Below are positions 22,611 to 27,640 of a stretch of 64,000 nt of DNA, piece after piece. The notes under the pieces were generated by a model that did no database searches, was not told the DNA's origin, and worked only from the letters and a program-made list of their open reading frames with translations. Each line of letters starts with the position of its first letter. Within the stretch, counting starts at the first letter, position 1. The position numbers and the translations under genes are program-made. Origin of the DNA: an uncultured Pelagibacteraceae bacterium (lineage in GTDB: Bacteria; Pseudomonadota; Alphaproteobacteria; Pelagibacterales; Pelagibacteraceae); assembly GCA_902524115.1 (NCBI GenBank), contig CABZCA010000002.1:62001-126000 (forward strand), read 5' to 3'.

Positions 22611-23207
22611 TTATTTTTTCTGTTCTTGATTTTCTTTCGGTTCTTCTGTTTTTATAGGCTCTACTTTAACTTCTTCTTTAGAATCTTCTACTTTAACTTC
22701 TTCTTTAGAAGCTTCTACTTTAACTTCTTCTTTAGGAGCTTCTACTTTAACTTCTTCTTTAGGAGCTTCTGTTTGAGGATCAGTTGATGGCATTACGTTT
22801 TCCTCAGTAACTTCATTAATTTTAGTTTCTAAATCAATACCAATAGTCTTCTTAATTTTTTCAGCTATTCTAGCAGATTTACCAGTTCTATCTCTTAGAT
22901 AGTATAATTTTGCTCTTCTTACTTTTCCTGATCTTACAACTTTTATTGTATCTACAATTGGGCTGTATAATGCAAAAGTTCTTTCTACTCCCTCACCAAA
23001 AGAAATTTTTCTAACAGTAAAAGATGAATTGATGTCTCTACTCTTTTTTGCGATACATACACCTTCAAAATATTGAATTCTGTCTCTTTTACCCTCTGTT
23101 ATCCTAACCCCAACTTTAACGATATCTCCAGGGAAAAAAACAGGATGTTTTCTCTCAGAAATAATCTTGTTTAAATTTGATCTGTTTATTTCTTCAATAT
23201 TTTTCAT
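22611..23207 (-). CDS. rplS: 50S ribosomal protein L19 with repetitive C-terminal tail
   Basis: L19 sits at the 30S-50S interface. Residues 1 to about 125 are a normal L19 ([53 protein letters not shown]). After that the protein runs on to 198 residues, whereas L19 usually has 115-130. The extra roughly 65 residues are a Lys/Glu/Pro/Val repeat of nine-residue units like EAPKEEVKV, encoded by an exact 27-bp period. The tail is highly charged and probably disordered. It starts one base after the trmD stop and ends 11 bases before leuC. The neighbouring rpsP carries a similar tail. Confidence 0.95.
22661..22768 (-). repeat. 27-bp tandem coding repeat, four copies, in the L19 tail
   Basis: Four consecutive 27-base units begin at 22661, 22688, 22715 and 22742. 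On the plus strand each starts ctactttaacttcttcttta and differs from the others only in a few bases near its end. In the minus-strand gene they encode nine-residue units of the kind (A/D)(P/S)KEEVKVE. The near-identical bases, not just residues, point to recent tandem duplication or slippage. Confidence 0.95.
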
Positions 23208-23208
23208 A

Positions 23209-23892
23209 TTAATTTTTCTTATATTTTTGCCATAAGTCTGGTCTACGGTCGCGTGTTATAGCCTCAGATTGGGATAAACGCCAGTCTTTAATTTTGGCGT
23301 GATCACCTGAAATCAGCACATTTGGTACCTTTTTTTCCTCCCAAACTTGAGGTTTTGTGAATTGTGGATATTCAAGAAGGCCATTCTCAAAACTCTCATC
23401 TCTTGAGGAATTAACATTACCTAGAATTCCTGGAATAAATCTTAGAATAGAATCTGTTACAACAAATGCAGCAACTTCACCCCCTGATAATATAAAGTCA
23501 CCAATGCTAATCTCTTCAATATCCCTACTTTCTAGTATTCTTTCATCTACTCCTTCGAAATGACCACAAATTAAATTGATTGTTTTTTCATTTGAAAACT
23601 CTCTTGCAAGTTTAGAATTAAAAACTTTTCCTCTTGGACTTAAATAAAGGGTTTTTTCTTTAGTCTTGATATTTGCGTCTAATGAATTTGCCAAAACATC
23701 TGCTTTCATAATCATTCCATTTCCACCACCATAAGGAGTGTCGTCAACAGTTTTATGTTTATCTAATGCATAATCTCTTATGTTTACTGTTTCTAAATCC
23801 CATTCTTTTCCTTTTGACTTTCCAAAAAGACCTTTACTCAAATAACCTGGAAAATATTCTGGATACAACGTAAATACTCTAGACAAAAACAT
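23209..23892 (-). CDS. trmD: tRNA (guanine-N1)-methyltransferase
   Basis: Methylates G37 of tRNAs using SAM, guarding the reading frame. With the ATG at 23892 the protein has 228 residues and starts [17 protein letters not shown], as TrmD proteins do. The SPOUT knot region includes [13 protein letters not shown] and [16 protein letters not shown], and the end has [18 protein letters not shown]. The frame is open further upstream to 24057, but that part is Lys/Gln-rich and merely reads the rpsP tail repeats in another frame, so I reject it. The chosen start is four bases after the rpsP stop, which suits coupled translation. Confidence 0.95.
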
Positions 23893-23896
23893 TATT

Positions 23897-24367
23897 CTAT
23901 TTAGCTTCTTCCTTCGGAGCTTCTGTTTTAGCGTCCTCTTTTGGAGCTTCTGTTTTAGCTTCTTCTTTTGGTGCCTCTGCTTTTGGATCTTCTTTTTTAG
24001 CTTCTTCCTTTGGGGCTTCTGTTTTAGGAGCATCTGCTTTAGCTTCGCCACCCTCATCAGTTTTCTTTCTATCTTTTTTTGGAATTGCTTTTTGAGGATT
24101 ATTACCTTTTGCTGGCATAGGCATTATCTCATTTTCTCCTAATAATCTTGCAACTCTATTTGTTGGTTGTGCCCCTTGACCCAGCCAATACTTAACTCTC
24201 TCAACATCTAATCCCATTCTTTCTTTTTTTTCTTTTGGAATTAGAGGATTAAAAAAACCTAGTTTTTCTATAAACCTTCCATCTCTTGGAAATCTGCTAT
24301 CAGCAACCACTATCTTATATACTGGTCTCTTCTTAGTTCCTCCCATTGATAAACGCATCTTTAACAT
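23897..24367 (-). CDS. rpsP: 30S ribosomal protein S16 with repetitive C-terminal tail
   Basis: S16 is a small-subunit assembly protein. Residues 1 to about 80 are canonical ([22 protein letters not shown] split by the start choice, [29 protein letters not shown]). The remaining roughly 70 residues are an Ala/Glu/Lys/Pro tail built from units like EAKTEAPKE, taking the protein to 156 residues where S16 is usually 80-90. AGGAG lies five to six bases before the ATG at 24367, supporting that start over the in-frame ATG nine bases later. It follows ffh by 12 bases. A similar tail occurs in rplS. Confidence 0.95.
23904..24026 (-). repeat. 27-bp coding repeat with a 15-bp partial unit, in the S16 tail
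   Basis: Units begin at 23904, 23931, 23958 and 24000, with a 15-base partial unit at 23985-23999. On the plus strand each unit resembles gcttcttcctttggagcttc followed by tgtttta. It encodes nine residues such as EAKTEAPKE. The period and sequence resemble the repeat at 22661-22768 in rplS, about 1.1 kb away on the other side of trmD. Confidence 0.92.
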
Positions 24368-24379
24368 TTGTTCTCCTAT

Positions 24380-25738
24380 TTATTTTAATTGATTAAAAAG
24401 TTCTGGTGGTATGCCTTTATCCATCATCCCTTTTGTATTTCCTTTAGACATTTTTTTCATCATTTCTGACATCATCTTAAATTGCTTAAGCAATTTATTG
24501 ATAGTGGCTACGTCTGTTCCTGAGCCATTAGCAATTCTTTTTTTTCTAGAACCATCTATAATCTTAGGGTTTTCACGCTCTTTTTTAGTCATAGATAATA
24601 TTACCGCCTCGTTTTGAGTAATTATTTTTTCATCCACTCCAGCTTGATCCATTTGAGATTTAACTTTTGAAACACCAGGCAAAAAAGACATTATACCTTC
24701 AATACCACCCATTTTTTTCATTTGTCTTAGCTGAGTAAGATAATCCTCTAACGAGAACTGACCTTTTTTTAATTTTTCCTCTGTTTTTTTTAATTTTTCT
24801 TCATCTAGATCTTCGGCAGCCTTTTCAACAAGAGAAACAATATCTCCCATACCCAAAATTCGATTAGCAATTCTATCTGGATGAAAGACTTCAAAATTTT
24901 CTATTTTTTCACCTACCCCTAAAAATTTTATTGGAACATCTGCAACATATTTCATACTTAATGCTGCTCCACCTCTACCATCACCATCTGATCTTGTAAG
25001 AATAATACCAGTAAGATTAACTGTACTTTTAAATTCTTTTGCAACATTGGCAGCAACTTGTCCTGTCAGAGAATCTGCAACTAGAATTGTTTCTGATGGA
25101 TTGATAATACTTTCAATTTGTTTAATTTCACTCATCATCTGTAAATCTATTTGAGTTCTTCCAGCTGTATCAAAGAGAATTACCTCAGAGCCATTAAGAT
25201 TTGCAGCACTGATAGCTCTCCTACAAATATCAGCAGGTAATTGATCTTTTATGATTGGGAGTGTAATTATATTATTTTGTTCACCTAAAAGCCTCAATTG
25301 CTCTTGTGCAGCAGGTCTATAGACATCAAGACTAGCCATCATTACTTTTTTCTTTTTATTAATCTCTAAAAATCTCGCAAGTTTTGCACTTGTAGTTGTT
25401 TTTCCAGATCCTTGAAGCCCTACTAGCATCATAGGGACTGGTGGTACTGCGTTTAATTCTATTTCAGAATTTTTATCTCCTAAAAAAGAAATTAATTCAT
25501 CATTTACAACTTTAACCACCATCTGTCCTGGTGATGTCGATCTTACAATTTCTTGTCCTAAAGCTTTTGGTTTTACCCTACTTATAAATTCTTTTACTAC
25601 TTCTAAAGAAACATCTGCCTCTAACAGAGCAAGTCTAATCTCTCTTAAACCCTCGTCGACTTGCTTTTCATCAAGAGAAGGCGCCTTTTTTAAAGAAGAA
25701 AATATTTCTTCAAATTTATTTGTTAAATTTTCAAACAT
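24380..25738 (-). CDS. ffh: signal recognition particle GTPase Ffh
   Basis: The SRP protein binds signal sequences on nascent chains and, with 4.5S RNA and FtsY, targets them to the membrane. From the ATG at 25738 it has 452 residues: an N domain, then the G domain with P-loop GLQGSGKTTTSAKLA, DVYRPAAQEQL, DTAGRTQID and TRSDGDGRGGAA, and a Met-rich M domain ending MSEMMKKMSKGNTKGMMDKG. An upstream in-frame ATG at 25762 would add MRYLLDVI, but MFENLTNKFEEIF is the family start and those eight codons fall inside the leader RNA. A GGA nine bases upstream is the likely ribosome-binding site and lies in a predicted helix of that leader. Confidence 0.96.
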   Translation of the reverse strand: MFENLTNKFEEIFSSLKKAPSLDEKQVDEGLREIRLALLEADVSLEVVKEFISRVKPKALGQEIVRSTSPGQMVVKVVNDELISFLGDKNSEIELNAVPPVPMMLVGLQGSGKTTTSAKLARFLEINKKKKVMMASLDVYRPAAQEQLRLLGEQNNIITLPIIKDQLPADICRRAISAANLNGSEVILFDTAGRTQIDLQMMSEIKQIESIINPSETILVADSLTGQVAANVAKEFKSTVNLTGIILTRSDGDGRGGAALSMKYVADVPIKFLGVGEKIENFEVFHPDRIANRILGMGDIVSLVEKAAEDLDEEKLKKTEEKLKKGQFSLEDYLTQLRQMKKMGGIEGIMSFLPGVSKVKSQMDQAGVDEKIITQNEAVILSMTKKERENPKIIDGSRKKRIANGSGTDVATINKLLKQFKMMSEMMKKMSKGNTKGMMDKGIPPELFNQLK

Positions 25739-25843
25739 AATCACATCCAGCAAGTATCGCACCAGTGGGCGAACTCTCGCTGACTGATGTCGATCTCTTT
25801 GTTACCAAAGACACCGCAAATTGCTGTATTTTGCGGAAACGGC
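25739..25843 (-). ncRNA. structured 5' leader RNA of ffh (candidate cis-regulator)
   Basis: The roughly 105 bases before ffh are conspicuously richer in G and C than the surroundings and fold on the minus strand into clear helices. The first is a hairpin CCGCAAA/TTTGCGG. The second is TCTTTG-GTAA-CAAAGA with a GNRA-type loop. The third is a longer arm pairing CAGCGAG with CTTGCTG (one G-U), capped by TCGC/GCGA, and extended by CATC/GATG. The last strand (CTGGATG) includes the likely GGA ribosome-binding site of ffh. It lacks the conserved 4.5S SRP RNA core, so it is not ffs. I recall that a computed 'ffh' motif has been described in alphaproteobacteria and metagenomes but cannot confirm identity here. 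Confidence 0.7.
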
Positions 25844-25848
25844 GATAA

Positions 25849-25874
25849 ATTATAATAGAGGTTCAAAAAGTCAA
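25849..25874 (-). promoter_or_regulatory. promoter for the ffh leader and downstream operon
   Basis: On the minus strand TTGACT (25874-25869) is followed after 14 bases by a perfect TATAAT (25854-25849). The spacing is shorter than the usual 16-18, which weakens the -35 assignment, but the -10 is ideal. The expected start near 25842 coincides with the first base of the structured leader. No other strong promoter is evident in the next 25 kb of minus-strand genes. Confidence 0.55.
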
Positions 25875-25898: not shown

Positions 25899-26723
25899 AT
25901 GGAATTTAAAGCATTTAAAATGGATGGTCTTGGCAATGATTTTGTAATTATTGACCAAAGACAAAAAAATATAGATTTAAGCAAAGATCAAATTGTTAAG
26001 ATTTGTGATAGAGATTTTATTGGCTGTGACCAACTAATTTATATTAACAATAGTGATGATGCCGATGCTGAACTAGTGTTTTATAATTCTGATGGCTCTG
26101 GATCAGATGCATGTGGAAATGGCACAAGATGTGTTGCCTACTTGCTATCAAAAGAAAAAAATATAAAAAATATAAACCTACAAGTAGGATCAAAAAAGTT
26201 AAATTCAAATCTACTTGACGATGGTCAAGTTGAAACAATAATTGGCGTACCAAAAACTAATTGGAAAGAAATTCCTTTATCTGAAAATCTAGATACTCGA
26301 AATTTAGCTATAAGTATAAGAGATAAAAACAATCAAGAAATATCTGGTGGTATTGCTATTAATGTAGGTAATCCTCATGCTATTTTTTTTGTTAATAAAA
26401 TAGAAAATTTTAATATAGAAAAAATTGGACCAGAGATAGAAAATCATAAATTATTTCCAGAAAAATGCAATTTAACACTCGCACAAAAAATAAATAAAAA
26501 TCATTATAAAGTTAAAGTTTGGGAAAGAGGTGCTGGCTTAACAAAAGCATGTGGAACTGCTGCGTGTGCAACTGCTGTAGCTGCAAATTTAGAAAATTTA
26601 GAAAATTCTAAAACTGAAATTGAATTTATTTTGGGTAAATTAGTAATTTCTATTGATGAAAATCAACAAATTTATATGAAAGGGCCTGTGTCTAACATCA
26701 AAGAAATAGACATAAATATCTAA
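25899..26723 (+). CDS. dapF: diaminopimelate epimerase
   Basis: Interconverts LL- and meso-diaminopimelate for lysine and peptidoglycan synthesis. In 274 residues the two catalytic cysteines are Cys72 (DACGNGTRCVA) and Cys218 (KACGTAACAT). The start KMDGLGNDFVIID is canonical. No Shine-Dalgarno sequence precedes the ATG, and a weak TTCAAA/TAAATA pair at 25862-25889 would place transcription start very near the ATG, so the message may be almost leaderless (inference). It overlaps ftsY by one base (TAATG). The methylthiotransferase gene often found between dapF and ftsY in alphaproteobacteria is absent. Confidence 0.96.
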   Translation: MEFKAFKMDGLGNDFVIIDQRQKNIDLSKDQIVKICDRDFIGCDQLIYINNSDDADAELVFYNSDGSGSDACGNGTRCVAYLLSKEKNIKNINLQVGSKKLNSNLLDDGQVETIIGVPKTNWKEIPLSENLDTRNLAISIRDKNNQEISGGIAINVGNPHAIFFVNKIENFNIEKIGPEIENHKLFPEKCNLTLAQKINKNHYKVKVWERGAGLTKACGTAACATAVAANLENLENSKTEIEFILGKLVISIDENQQIYMKGPVSNIKEIDINI

Positions 26724-27640
26724 TGGGTATTTTTGAAAAGTTTAAATTAGGCTTTAAAAAAAGTGCTGACAGTATTTCTTTAGGACTTAGAGAAATAATT
26801 GTAAAAAAAGAAATTGATGATGAAACATTAAATAAGATTGAAGAATTTTTGATCAGTTCTGATGTTGGTATTGATGCTTCAGCGGAAATAAAAAGAATTA
26901 TATCTCAAAAAAAAATAGATCCAAAAAAAAATGCTTTTGAAGAGATAAACTTAATTTTAAAAGAATATATCCTGGAAATGATGAAACCTTTAGAAAGGAA
27001 AGATTTTTTTGAAAAAAAAGAAAATTTAAACGTAACATTGGTATCTGGTGTAAATGGAGTAGGTAAAACTACAACTATAGGAAAAATTGGTAAAATATTT
27101 AAAGATAACGGTTCAGAAGTAATATTTTCTGCTTGTGATACCTTTAGGGCAGCAGCTATTGATCAGCTCGAGTCTTGGTCTGATAAAGTTGGCGCAACAA
27201 TTATTAAATCAAATCCAGGATCTGACCCAGCTTCTGTTGCGTATAAGGCGATAGAACACGCAAAAAACAATAATATTAGTCAGGTACTTATTGATACAGC
27301 TGGCAGATTACAAAATAAGAAAAATTTGATGGATGAATTTAAAAAAATTGCAAATGTCATAAAAAAGACTGATGAAAGTGCGCCACAGGATGTAATCTTA
27401 GTCTTAGATGCAACATCAGGGCAGAATATAATAAATCAATTAGAAGAATTTAATAAAATTATTAAAATCACAGGTCTAATTATGACCAAACTCGATGGAA
27501 CAGCTAAAGGTGGAGTATTAATTGCTATCTCAAAAAAATATAAAGTGCCAATTGTTGGATTAGGTCTTGGTGAGAAAATAGATGATTTACAAATATTTAA
27601 TGCAGAGCAGTTTGCAGATGCTTTTACTCAATTTAATTGA
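26723..27640 (+). CDS. ftsY: signal recognition particle receptor FtsY
   Basis: The SRP receptor GTPase docks Ffh-ribosome complexes at the membrane. The 305 residues contain the N domain (residues about 1-95) and the G domain: P-loop GVNGVGKTTT at 109-118, DTFRAAAIDQL, DTAGRLQNKKNLMDE and TKLDGTAKGG. The long acidic A domain of enterobacterial FtsY is absent, leaving the minimal NG form with a short amphipathic start (MGIFEKFKLGFKKSADS) for membrane contact. It converges on, and overlaps by eight bases, the gene at 27633. Ffh lies just across dapF on the other strand. Confidence 0.96.
   Translation: MGIFEKFKLGFKKSADSISLGLREIIVKKEIDDETLNKIEEFLISSDVGIDASAEIKRIISQKKIDPKKNAFEEINLILKEYILEMMKPLERKDFFEKKENLNVTLVSGVNGVGKTTTIGKIGKIFKDNGSEVIFSACDTFRAAAIDQLESWSDKVGATIIKSNPGSDPASVAYKAIEHAKNNNISQVLIDTAGRLQNKKNLMDEFKKIANVIKKTDESAPQDVILVLDATSGQNIINQLEEFNKIIKITGLIMTKLDGTAKGGVLIAISKKYKVPIVGLGLGEKIDDLQIFNAEQFADAFTQFN

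Follow-up and report, generated by a model that had tools for sequence, protein, structure and literature searches.

The ffh motif was described upstream of ffh in 'Candidatus Pelagibacter ubique' by Meyer et al. (2009, PMC2704228), and the available text of that study depicts one bulged hairpin that carries two conserved C residues. The same text gives no known function for the motif and records it from Rhodobacterales, Sphingomonadales and Rhizobiales. The literature searched, which included few subscription papers and no bioRxiv preprints, contained neither a functional study of the motif nor an assignment of a function or ligand to its Rfam family, RF01793. Two ribosomal protein leaders are described in the available part of Eckert and Weinberg (2020, PMC7247131). 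The S16 leader of Flavobacteria is found directly upstream of rpsP, usually with rimM, and bS16 is its proposed ligand; the L19 leader of Firmicutes and Flavobacteria is tied to bL19. According to the accessible portion of a 2024 review (PMC10931766), information is lacking on the regulation of rpsP-rimM-trmD-rplS operon expression.

Gene neighborhood and promoter

The window is the whole stretch of DNA analyzed here, 64,000 nucleotides from a contig of an uncultured Pelagibacteraceae bacterium. On its minus strand, the ~105 bases upstream of ffh form a structured leader RNA with three hairpins (P1, P2 and P3), located between the divergent genes dapF (plus strand, 25899-26723) and ffh (minus strand, 24380-25738, TIGR00959, 570.2 bits, start codon at 25738-25736). 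The 110-nt leader RNA has a predicted folding energy of -36.4 kcal/mol, compared with -26.35 kcal/mol (sd 3.36) for shuffled sequences (z -2.99; one shuffle in 200 folded equally well); the plus-strand fold (z -1.91) has no bearing on the minus-strand RNA. Also on the minus strand are rpsP, which encodes bS16 (23897-24367, TIGR00002), trmD (23209-24057, NF000648), whose listed reading frame starts inside rpsP and matches its family from residue 60, and rplS, which encodes bL19 (22611-23207, TIGR01024). A 25-kb gene run after the leader had been noted in the first-pass annotation, and closely spaced minus-strand genes do fill 25 kb. rimM was not seen between rpsP and trmD in the window (23209-24367) and is present at that place in loci L192, L307 and L309. 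ftsY directly follows dapF on the plus strand (25899-27640), which places ffh and ftsY, the genes for the SRP protein and the SRP receptor, on either side of the leader.

The core of the leader matches RF01793 (25804-25752, 57.4 bits against a gathering threshold of 35), the ffh motif to which the first-pass annotation had suggested it may correspond. This is the sole Rfam match at the gathering threshold in the whole window, and a search of the surrounding 351 bases gave no second match at E 1 or better. There is no match to RF00169 in the window, in agreement with the earlier remark that the leader has no SRP RNA core; the SRP RNA of this genome is on another contig (C7 of genome G000). The element itself is therefore catalogued and not new.

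The promoter proposed earlier for the 5' end of the RNA needs correction. A TTGACT sequence at 25869-25874 (minus strand) is a putative -35 box, and all 94 unique SAR11 leaders have TTGAC at the same distance. The TATAAT originally taken as the -10 box (25854-25849) lies just 14 nt from TTGACT (25874-25869), and the overlapping TAATTT (25847-25852, minus strand), with a spacer of 16 and a likeness by eye to TAGTTT, TAACTT or TACTTT in relatives, is the more likely -10 box. A consensus promoter scan listed neither pair of boxes, and its total for the region (17, compared with 19.6 for shuffles) showed no excess. We infer the promoter from the conservation of TTGAC.

Distribution of the motif

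Searches with RF01793 over more than 40 genomes were run with stricter filters. At E 0.001 or better the motif was found in 348 of 397 Pelagibacterales genomes, in 106 of 385 sampled genomes of the class (81 above the gathering score) and in 79 of 398 genomes of the phylum, all 79 of which belong to the same class. Under these strict filters, 279 of the 385 class genomes gave no match, which counts against a general leader of the operon. A set of 191 loci was fetched (L001-L111 from Pelagibacterales and L112-L191 from other Alphaproteobacteria including the PS1 clade), and the motif is upstream of ffh in 186 of them. Four of the five exceptions are from PS1, and the fifth, L172, stops at a contig end. 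The distance to rpsP was queried for a subset of 80 motif-bearing genomes of the class; rpsP is 1.4-5.1 kb downstream on the same contig and strand in 74, and S16 was not found (4) or was on another contig (2) in the other six. The R1 search covered 78 of 80 named loci, L254 and L260 having fewer than 750 bases upstream of S16, and returned 36 sources at E 0.01 or better and 68 at E 1 or better, where the E-values are rough.

The association extends to plasmids. Of four plasmid records from other species, two rhizobial ones combine the motif with ffh, chorismate mutase, rpsP, rimM and trmD, and in the two Rhodobacterales ones both ffh and S16 follow the motif. The record of Rhizobium sp. NLR16a plasmid p3 (L307, 489 kb) reads ftsY-mtaB-dapF / leader-ffh-chorismate mutase-rpsP-rimM-trmD-rplS. 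A possible exception to the operon link is an RF01793 entry for the intergenic region IGR_Pb-19 of Mesorhizobium huakuii, which appears in the accessible portion of an sRNA study.

The same entry bears on a different function, namely that cleavage or termination turns the leader into an abundant, stable small RNA, or that the leader serves as a 5' stability or processing element that protects the operon mRNA. Rfam assigns RF01793 to the sRNA type, the available text of Meyer et al. (2009, PMC2704228) mentions detection of the transcript in metatranscriptomic small-RNA studies, and a U-rich stretch is visible by eye after P3 in many loci from other Alphaproteobacteria. Each genome listed has one match, however, and it adjoins one operon, as expected of a cis element, and by eye the SAR11 3' flank has no U tract. 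This explanation is rather doubtful.

Helices P1, P2 and P3

The leaders were compared in an alignment (A1) of 71 distinct sequences, which comprises 62 SAR11 representatives (of 94 unique leaders) and 9 PS1 leaders (of 14 loci). L103, which lacks the full upstream part, was left out of the SAR11 alignment. P1 (25814-25836, minus strand) pairs CCGCAAA (25836-25830) with TTTGCGG (25820-25814). In A1, 90.1% of its cells are paired, two-sided change is seen in 5 of 7 pairs (a number reached by 27 of 500 shuffles), and its covariation score was reached by 0 of 500.

P2 (25791-25816, minus strand) has the sequence CGGUGUCUUUG-GUAA-CAAAGAGAUCG. The TCTTTG-GTAA-CAAAGA hairpin named earlier is present at 25811-25796, and the conserved helix is longer, CGGU(G)UCUUUG/CAAAGA(G)AUCG. 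In A1, 91.6% of the P2 cells are paired and 9 of 11 pairs show two-sided change. A total of 104 cells are changed on both sides compared with 31.2 in shuffles, the covariation score is 0.378 compared with 0.187 (0/500), the number of pair types was reached by 32 of 500 shuffles, and the signal is lost when the partner strand is slid. The fifth position is a nonstandard G.G in 44 rows, as in the window, and a standard pair in 27.

P3 (25760-25789, minus strand) is the RF01793 core, CAUCAGU-CA-GCGA-GAGU-UCGC-CC-ACUGGUG, with a C.C mismatch and an A.C position. Its A1 cells are paired to 91.7%, although one counted position is never standard. Cells changed on both sides number 65 compared with 17.8 in shuffles and the covariation score is 0.246 compared with 0.117 (0/500). 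Neither the pairs with two-sided change (5, a number reached by 113 of 500 shuffles) nor the pair types (481/500) are more numerous than in shuffles in A1. The internal loop has conserved C residues; C77 is invariant and C62 is kept in at least 90% of A1. No conservation of the C.C opposition is drawn from the P3 finder, which needs a C opposite the mismatch and missed L190 and L213. The internal position beside the conserved C, where the window has A.C, is occupied by A.C in 70 of 78 SAR11 rows and by U.C in the other 8. Among 73 rows from other Alphaproteobacteria it is a standard pair in 29 (14 C-G, 6 U-A, 7 G-U and 2 G-C), and the remaining 44 have a 5' A throughout (39 A.C and 5 A.A).

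All three helices therefore covary in the 71-leader alignment. On these comparative grounds the published single hairpin, P3, has two conserved upstream helices, P1 and P2, which are an addition to the described structure.

P2 was also followed outside SAR11, where in other Alphaproteobacteria it often takes the form CGGUCC.../...GGAUCG directly before P3. The mean P2 hairpin score in this group is 7.67 compared with 4.13 for shuffles, and 26 of 74 loci exceed the 95th percentile, so that many are individually insignificant. A second alignment, A2, has 78 rows (75 leaders and three extra matches) and shows two-sided change in 19 of 22 pairs; A2 is model-fitted, so its counts lean towards structure, and its 75 loci were selected by RF01793 and are not independent hits. 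In L148, L158, L160 and L179, also from other Alphaproteobacteria, P2 is shrunk to a very short hairpin (e.g., GGCCC-CGAG-GGGCC). By eye, the linker AUCG could also pair with CGAU after P3, but this helix was discarded, as taxa with GAUCA do not compensate. A long-range CUUCC/GGAAG pairing is visible by eye in some leaders.

A CGG strand is common to the 3' side of P1 and the 5' side of P2. The triplet formed by the P1 5' strand, the shared strand and the linker is G-C-G in 49 A1 rows and A-U-A in 11. Of the latter, L056 and L057 come from the same genus as the window and the rest from others, so the change probably arose more than once. Two SAR11 rows are G-U-G and G-U-U, and the pattern is not followed in PS1, where eight rows are A-C-G and one is U-C-G. 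L088 carries two changes that strengthen P2, one of which disrupts P1. Given these patterns, P1 and P2 in SAR11 look like helices that compete for CGG.

The 3' element and helix B

P3 is followed by a 3' element, CGAUACUUGCUGGAUG (25744-25759, minus strand), in which T95 is invariant and T92, G93 and G96 are at least 90% conserved in A1. Its CTTGCTG part (25754-25748) is complementary in the window to CAGCGAG (25782-25776) of the P3 5' strand, and GATG (25747-25744) is complementary to CATC (25789-25786); this pairing is referred to as helix B. The first-pass annotation counted this arm as the third helix of the leader and placed the ribosome-binding site within it. All the pieces it named are present and the other two helices are conserved in relatives, but the CAGCGAG/CTTGCTG arm with its CATC/GATG extension has no excess of covariation in A1 (cells paired 210/500, two-sided pairs 477/500, pair types 476/500, score 198/500).

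Helix B could make the leader a bistable switch, in which P3 alternates with B and B buries the ribosome-binding site. Constrained folding of the leader RNA from this genome predicts B as the ground state (-32.9 kcal/mol, compared with -27.4 kcal/mol for P3). The duplex energy between the P3 5' strand and the 3' segment is below that of mononucleotide shuffles in SAR11 (-5.69 compared with -3.05) and PS1 (-7.12 compared with -1.97), where CAACGAG/CUUGUUG is seen at this place, and over all 160 rows own pairs beat permuted ones (0/3000). The sole covariation measure that leans upward is the number of B cells changed on both sides (21 compared with 16.5 in shuffles, 35/500), and one B pair changes from G-C to A-U in 6 rows. 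This change is demanded equally by P3, however, and the permutation over all rows mixes clades; within the other Alphaproteobacteria the same duplex test gave -4.61 for own and -4.30 for shuffled pairs (permutation p 0.22). Of the 94 SAR11 leaders, 76 are able to form B, and B is lower in energy than P3 in just 13 of these; in the 7 of 12 PS1 leaders able to form B, P3 is on average 6.2 kcal/mol lower. A switch of this kind is thus improbable. Helix B was rejected as a conserved switch, since duplex energies, pair counts and constrained folding give complementarity in SAR11 and PS1 and no covarying alternative helix over the Shine-Dalgarno sequence. The folding models suggest that B may form in this genome without defining the element. 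Burial of the ribosome-binding site is likewise not supported as a conserved feature, as GGA or AGG occurs 4-12 nt before the start codon in 41 of 94 SAR11 leaders and, outside SAR11 and PS1, P3 ends a median of 53 nt from that codon.

The leader in PS1 genomes

The PS1 clade is represented by 18 genomes (G445, G569, G664, G740 and G777-G790; the same 18 for family and order). The family is called PS1 because its S16 is 87-93% identical to records of the PS1 clade (2), the OCS116 cluster (1) and Hyphomicrobiales (1). None of the 18 gave an SRP GTPase domain above the cut-off, with one 41-residue match below it, and neither the Ffh M domain nor SRP RNA was found in them; the SRP RNA search was positive for five of five other alphaproteobacteria. 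A YidC control was found in 15 of the 18, including all six that are at least 90% complete. The PS1 genomes thus seem to have lost the signal recognition particle altogether. The literature searched, which covered few subscription papers and no bioRxiv preprints, contained no mention of such a loss in PS1. To our knowledge, a free-living bacterium without SRP would be unusual, if the loss is confirmed in closed genomes.

The motif is present in 14 of the 18 PS1 genomes and in five of the six that are at least 90% complete, so it is not confined to genomes in which ffh and SRP were found. The four genomes without it, of which one is 96% complete (G777), count against the leader reading. rpsP follows the motif in 14 of 14 PS1 loci (L205-L218) with no ffh in the stretch, and the S16 start codon lies 36-41 nt beyond the end of P3 in the 13 loci measured. 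The named loci L219-L222 probably duplicate four genomes already present among L205-L218 and were not counted again. The full order rpsP, rimM, trmD, rplS, with dapF and mtaB divergent, is seen in L192, the sole locus long enough, where family searches identified the genes; the other PS1 loci whose reading frames were examined, L155, L194 and L195, end within rpsP. The relatives L230 and L233 (Rhodobiaceae, S16 73-75% identical) have motif, ffh and rpsP in that order.

The pairing is maintained in these leaders. In the nine PS1 leaders of A1 the outer five P2 positions are paired in 9 of 9, with one pair G-C or A-U (6 to 3), and P3 pairs vary as A-U or G-C (3 to 6) and as C-G, U-A or U-G (4 to 4 to 1). 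Further in, P2 positions have gaps or are unpaired in part, which counts against the leader reading. As all 18 genomes lacked any SRP part that could be found, the compensatory changes most likely followed the loss, and pairing was most likely kept after it.

These observations bear on SRP autoregulation, in which Ffh, alone or with 4.5S RNA, would bind the leader and repress ffh. Regulation of ffh was raised in the available text of Meyer et al. (2009, PMC2704228), and ffh follows the motif in nearly all of the fetched loci, as noted above. The GUCAG of P3 with its A.C opposition also resembles the symmetric loop of 4.5S RNA. The many standard pairs at this position outside SAR11 argue against a fixed SRP-like loop, however, RF01793 is the only Rfam family matched here, and PS1 keeps and covaries the leader with no Ffh/FtsY domain above the cut-off and no SRP RNA found. 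Because PS1 retains the leader before rpsP without detectable SRP parts, the leader does not appear to need SRP. Sensing of SRP status, one of the functions first suggested, was rejected on this evidence, and SRP autoregulation is very improbable. Outside PS1 the first gene is ffh and not rpsP. PS1 therefore probably stands for a single evolutionary event, and it shows what the leader does not need and not what the leader binds.

Proposed function

Comparison of the loci indicates that the P2-P3 pair, preceded by P1 in SAR11, is kept by compensatory change directly upstream of the operon in nearly all loci examined. The leader lies in the 5' region of a ribosomal protein operon, with rpsP and rplS downstream, and in PS1 directly before rpsP. 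The structure is kept without SRP and the remaining neighbors are those of the bS16/bL19 operon, which makes the ribosomal protein operon more likely to be served than SRP; among the options first listed, a ribosomal protein is the best supported. The comparative data give good evidence that the function should be moved away from SRP and moderate evidence that it should be moved towards a ribosomal protein. Our main reading, with a probability of roughly 0.5, is that the leader would be a cis-regulatory 5'-UTR element of the ffh-rpsP-(rimM)-trmD-rplS operon of Alphaproteobacteria, through which a ribosomal protein of the operon would lower its expression.

In the proposed mechanism, bS16 as first candidate, or bL19 as second, would bind the P2-P3 region and lower expression of the operon, giving feedback as in other ribosomal protein leaders. 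bS16 is a putative ligand; RimM or TrmD would be less likely binders. Competition of P1 and P2 for CGG could switch the 5' end between two forms. P3 ends 20-36 nt from the ffh start codon in SAR11, where a bound protein could block the ribosome directly, and a median of 53 nt (16-292) from it in other Alphaproteobacteria (excluding SAR11 and PS1), which is a poor fit to one simple steric block. A metabolite riboswitch, for which the conserved C.C opposition in P3 and the strand sharing of P1 and P2 could speak, is highly improbable given short, separate hairpins with freely varying pairs, no evident multi-helix pocket and operon products that presumably have no obvious common metabolite.

A broader form of the ribosomal protein reading is less probable. 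RF01793 would be the missing autogenous control of the bS16-RimM-TrmD-bL19 operon in Alphaproteobacteria; P1 and P2 would exchange a strand, and ffh would be just a passenger. PS1 would be a free-living lineage in which deletions on either side of the leader removed the whole SRP (protein, receptor and RNA) and left the leader fused to the ribosomal protein operon. The PS1 case removes SRP from the list of candidates and leaves the four operon proteins, so that the question becomes testable.

Comparison with known systems

The element is a known motif with new structural detail. It shares with the ffh motif described in the available text of Meyer et al. (2009, PMC2704228) its sequence, the P3 hairpin with two conserved C residues and its place before ffh. 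In contrast to that single bulged hairpin, the leader has P1 and P2 with covariation, its internal position varies as a pair in other Alphaproteobacteria, and a clade in which no SRP part was found has the motif before rpsP. SRP RNA (4.5S RNA, RF00169) is alike only in its ffh neighborhood. The L19 leader, as described in the available part of PMC7247131, is alike in being tied to bL19, and the window's only match at the gathering threshold is to RF01793. The S16 leader presented there is the closest in placement, being likewise directly upstream of rpsP; it belongs to a different phylum, ffh usually lies between leader and rpsP in Alphaproteobacteria, and the two are likened by position and not by structure.
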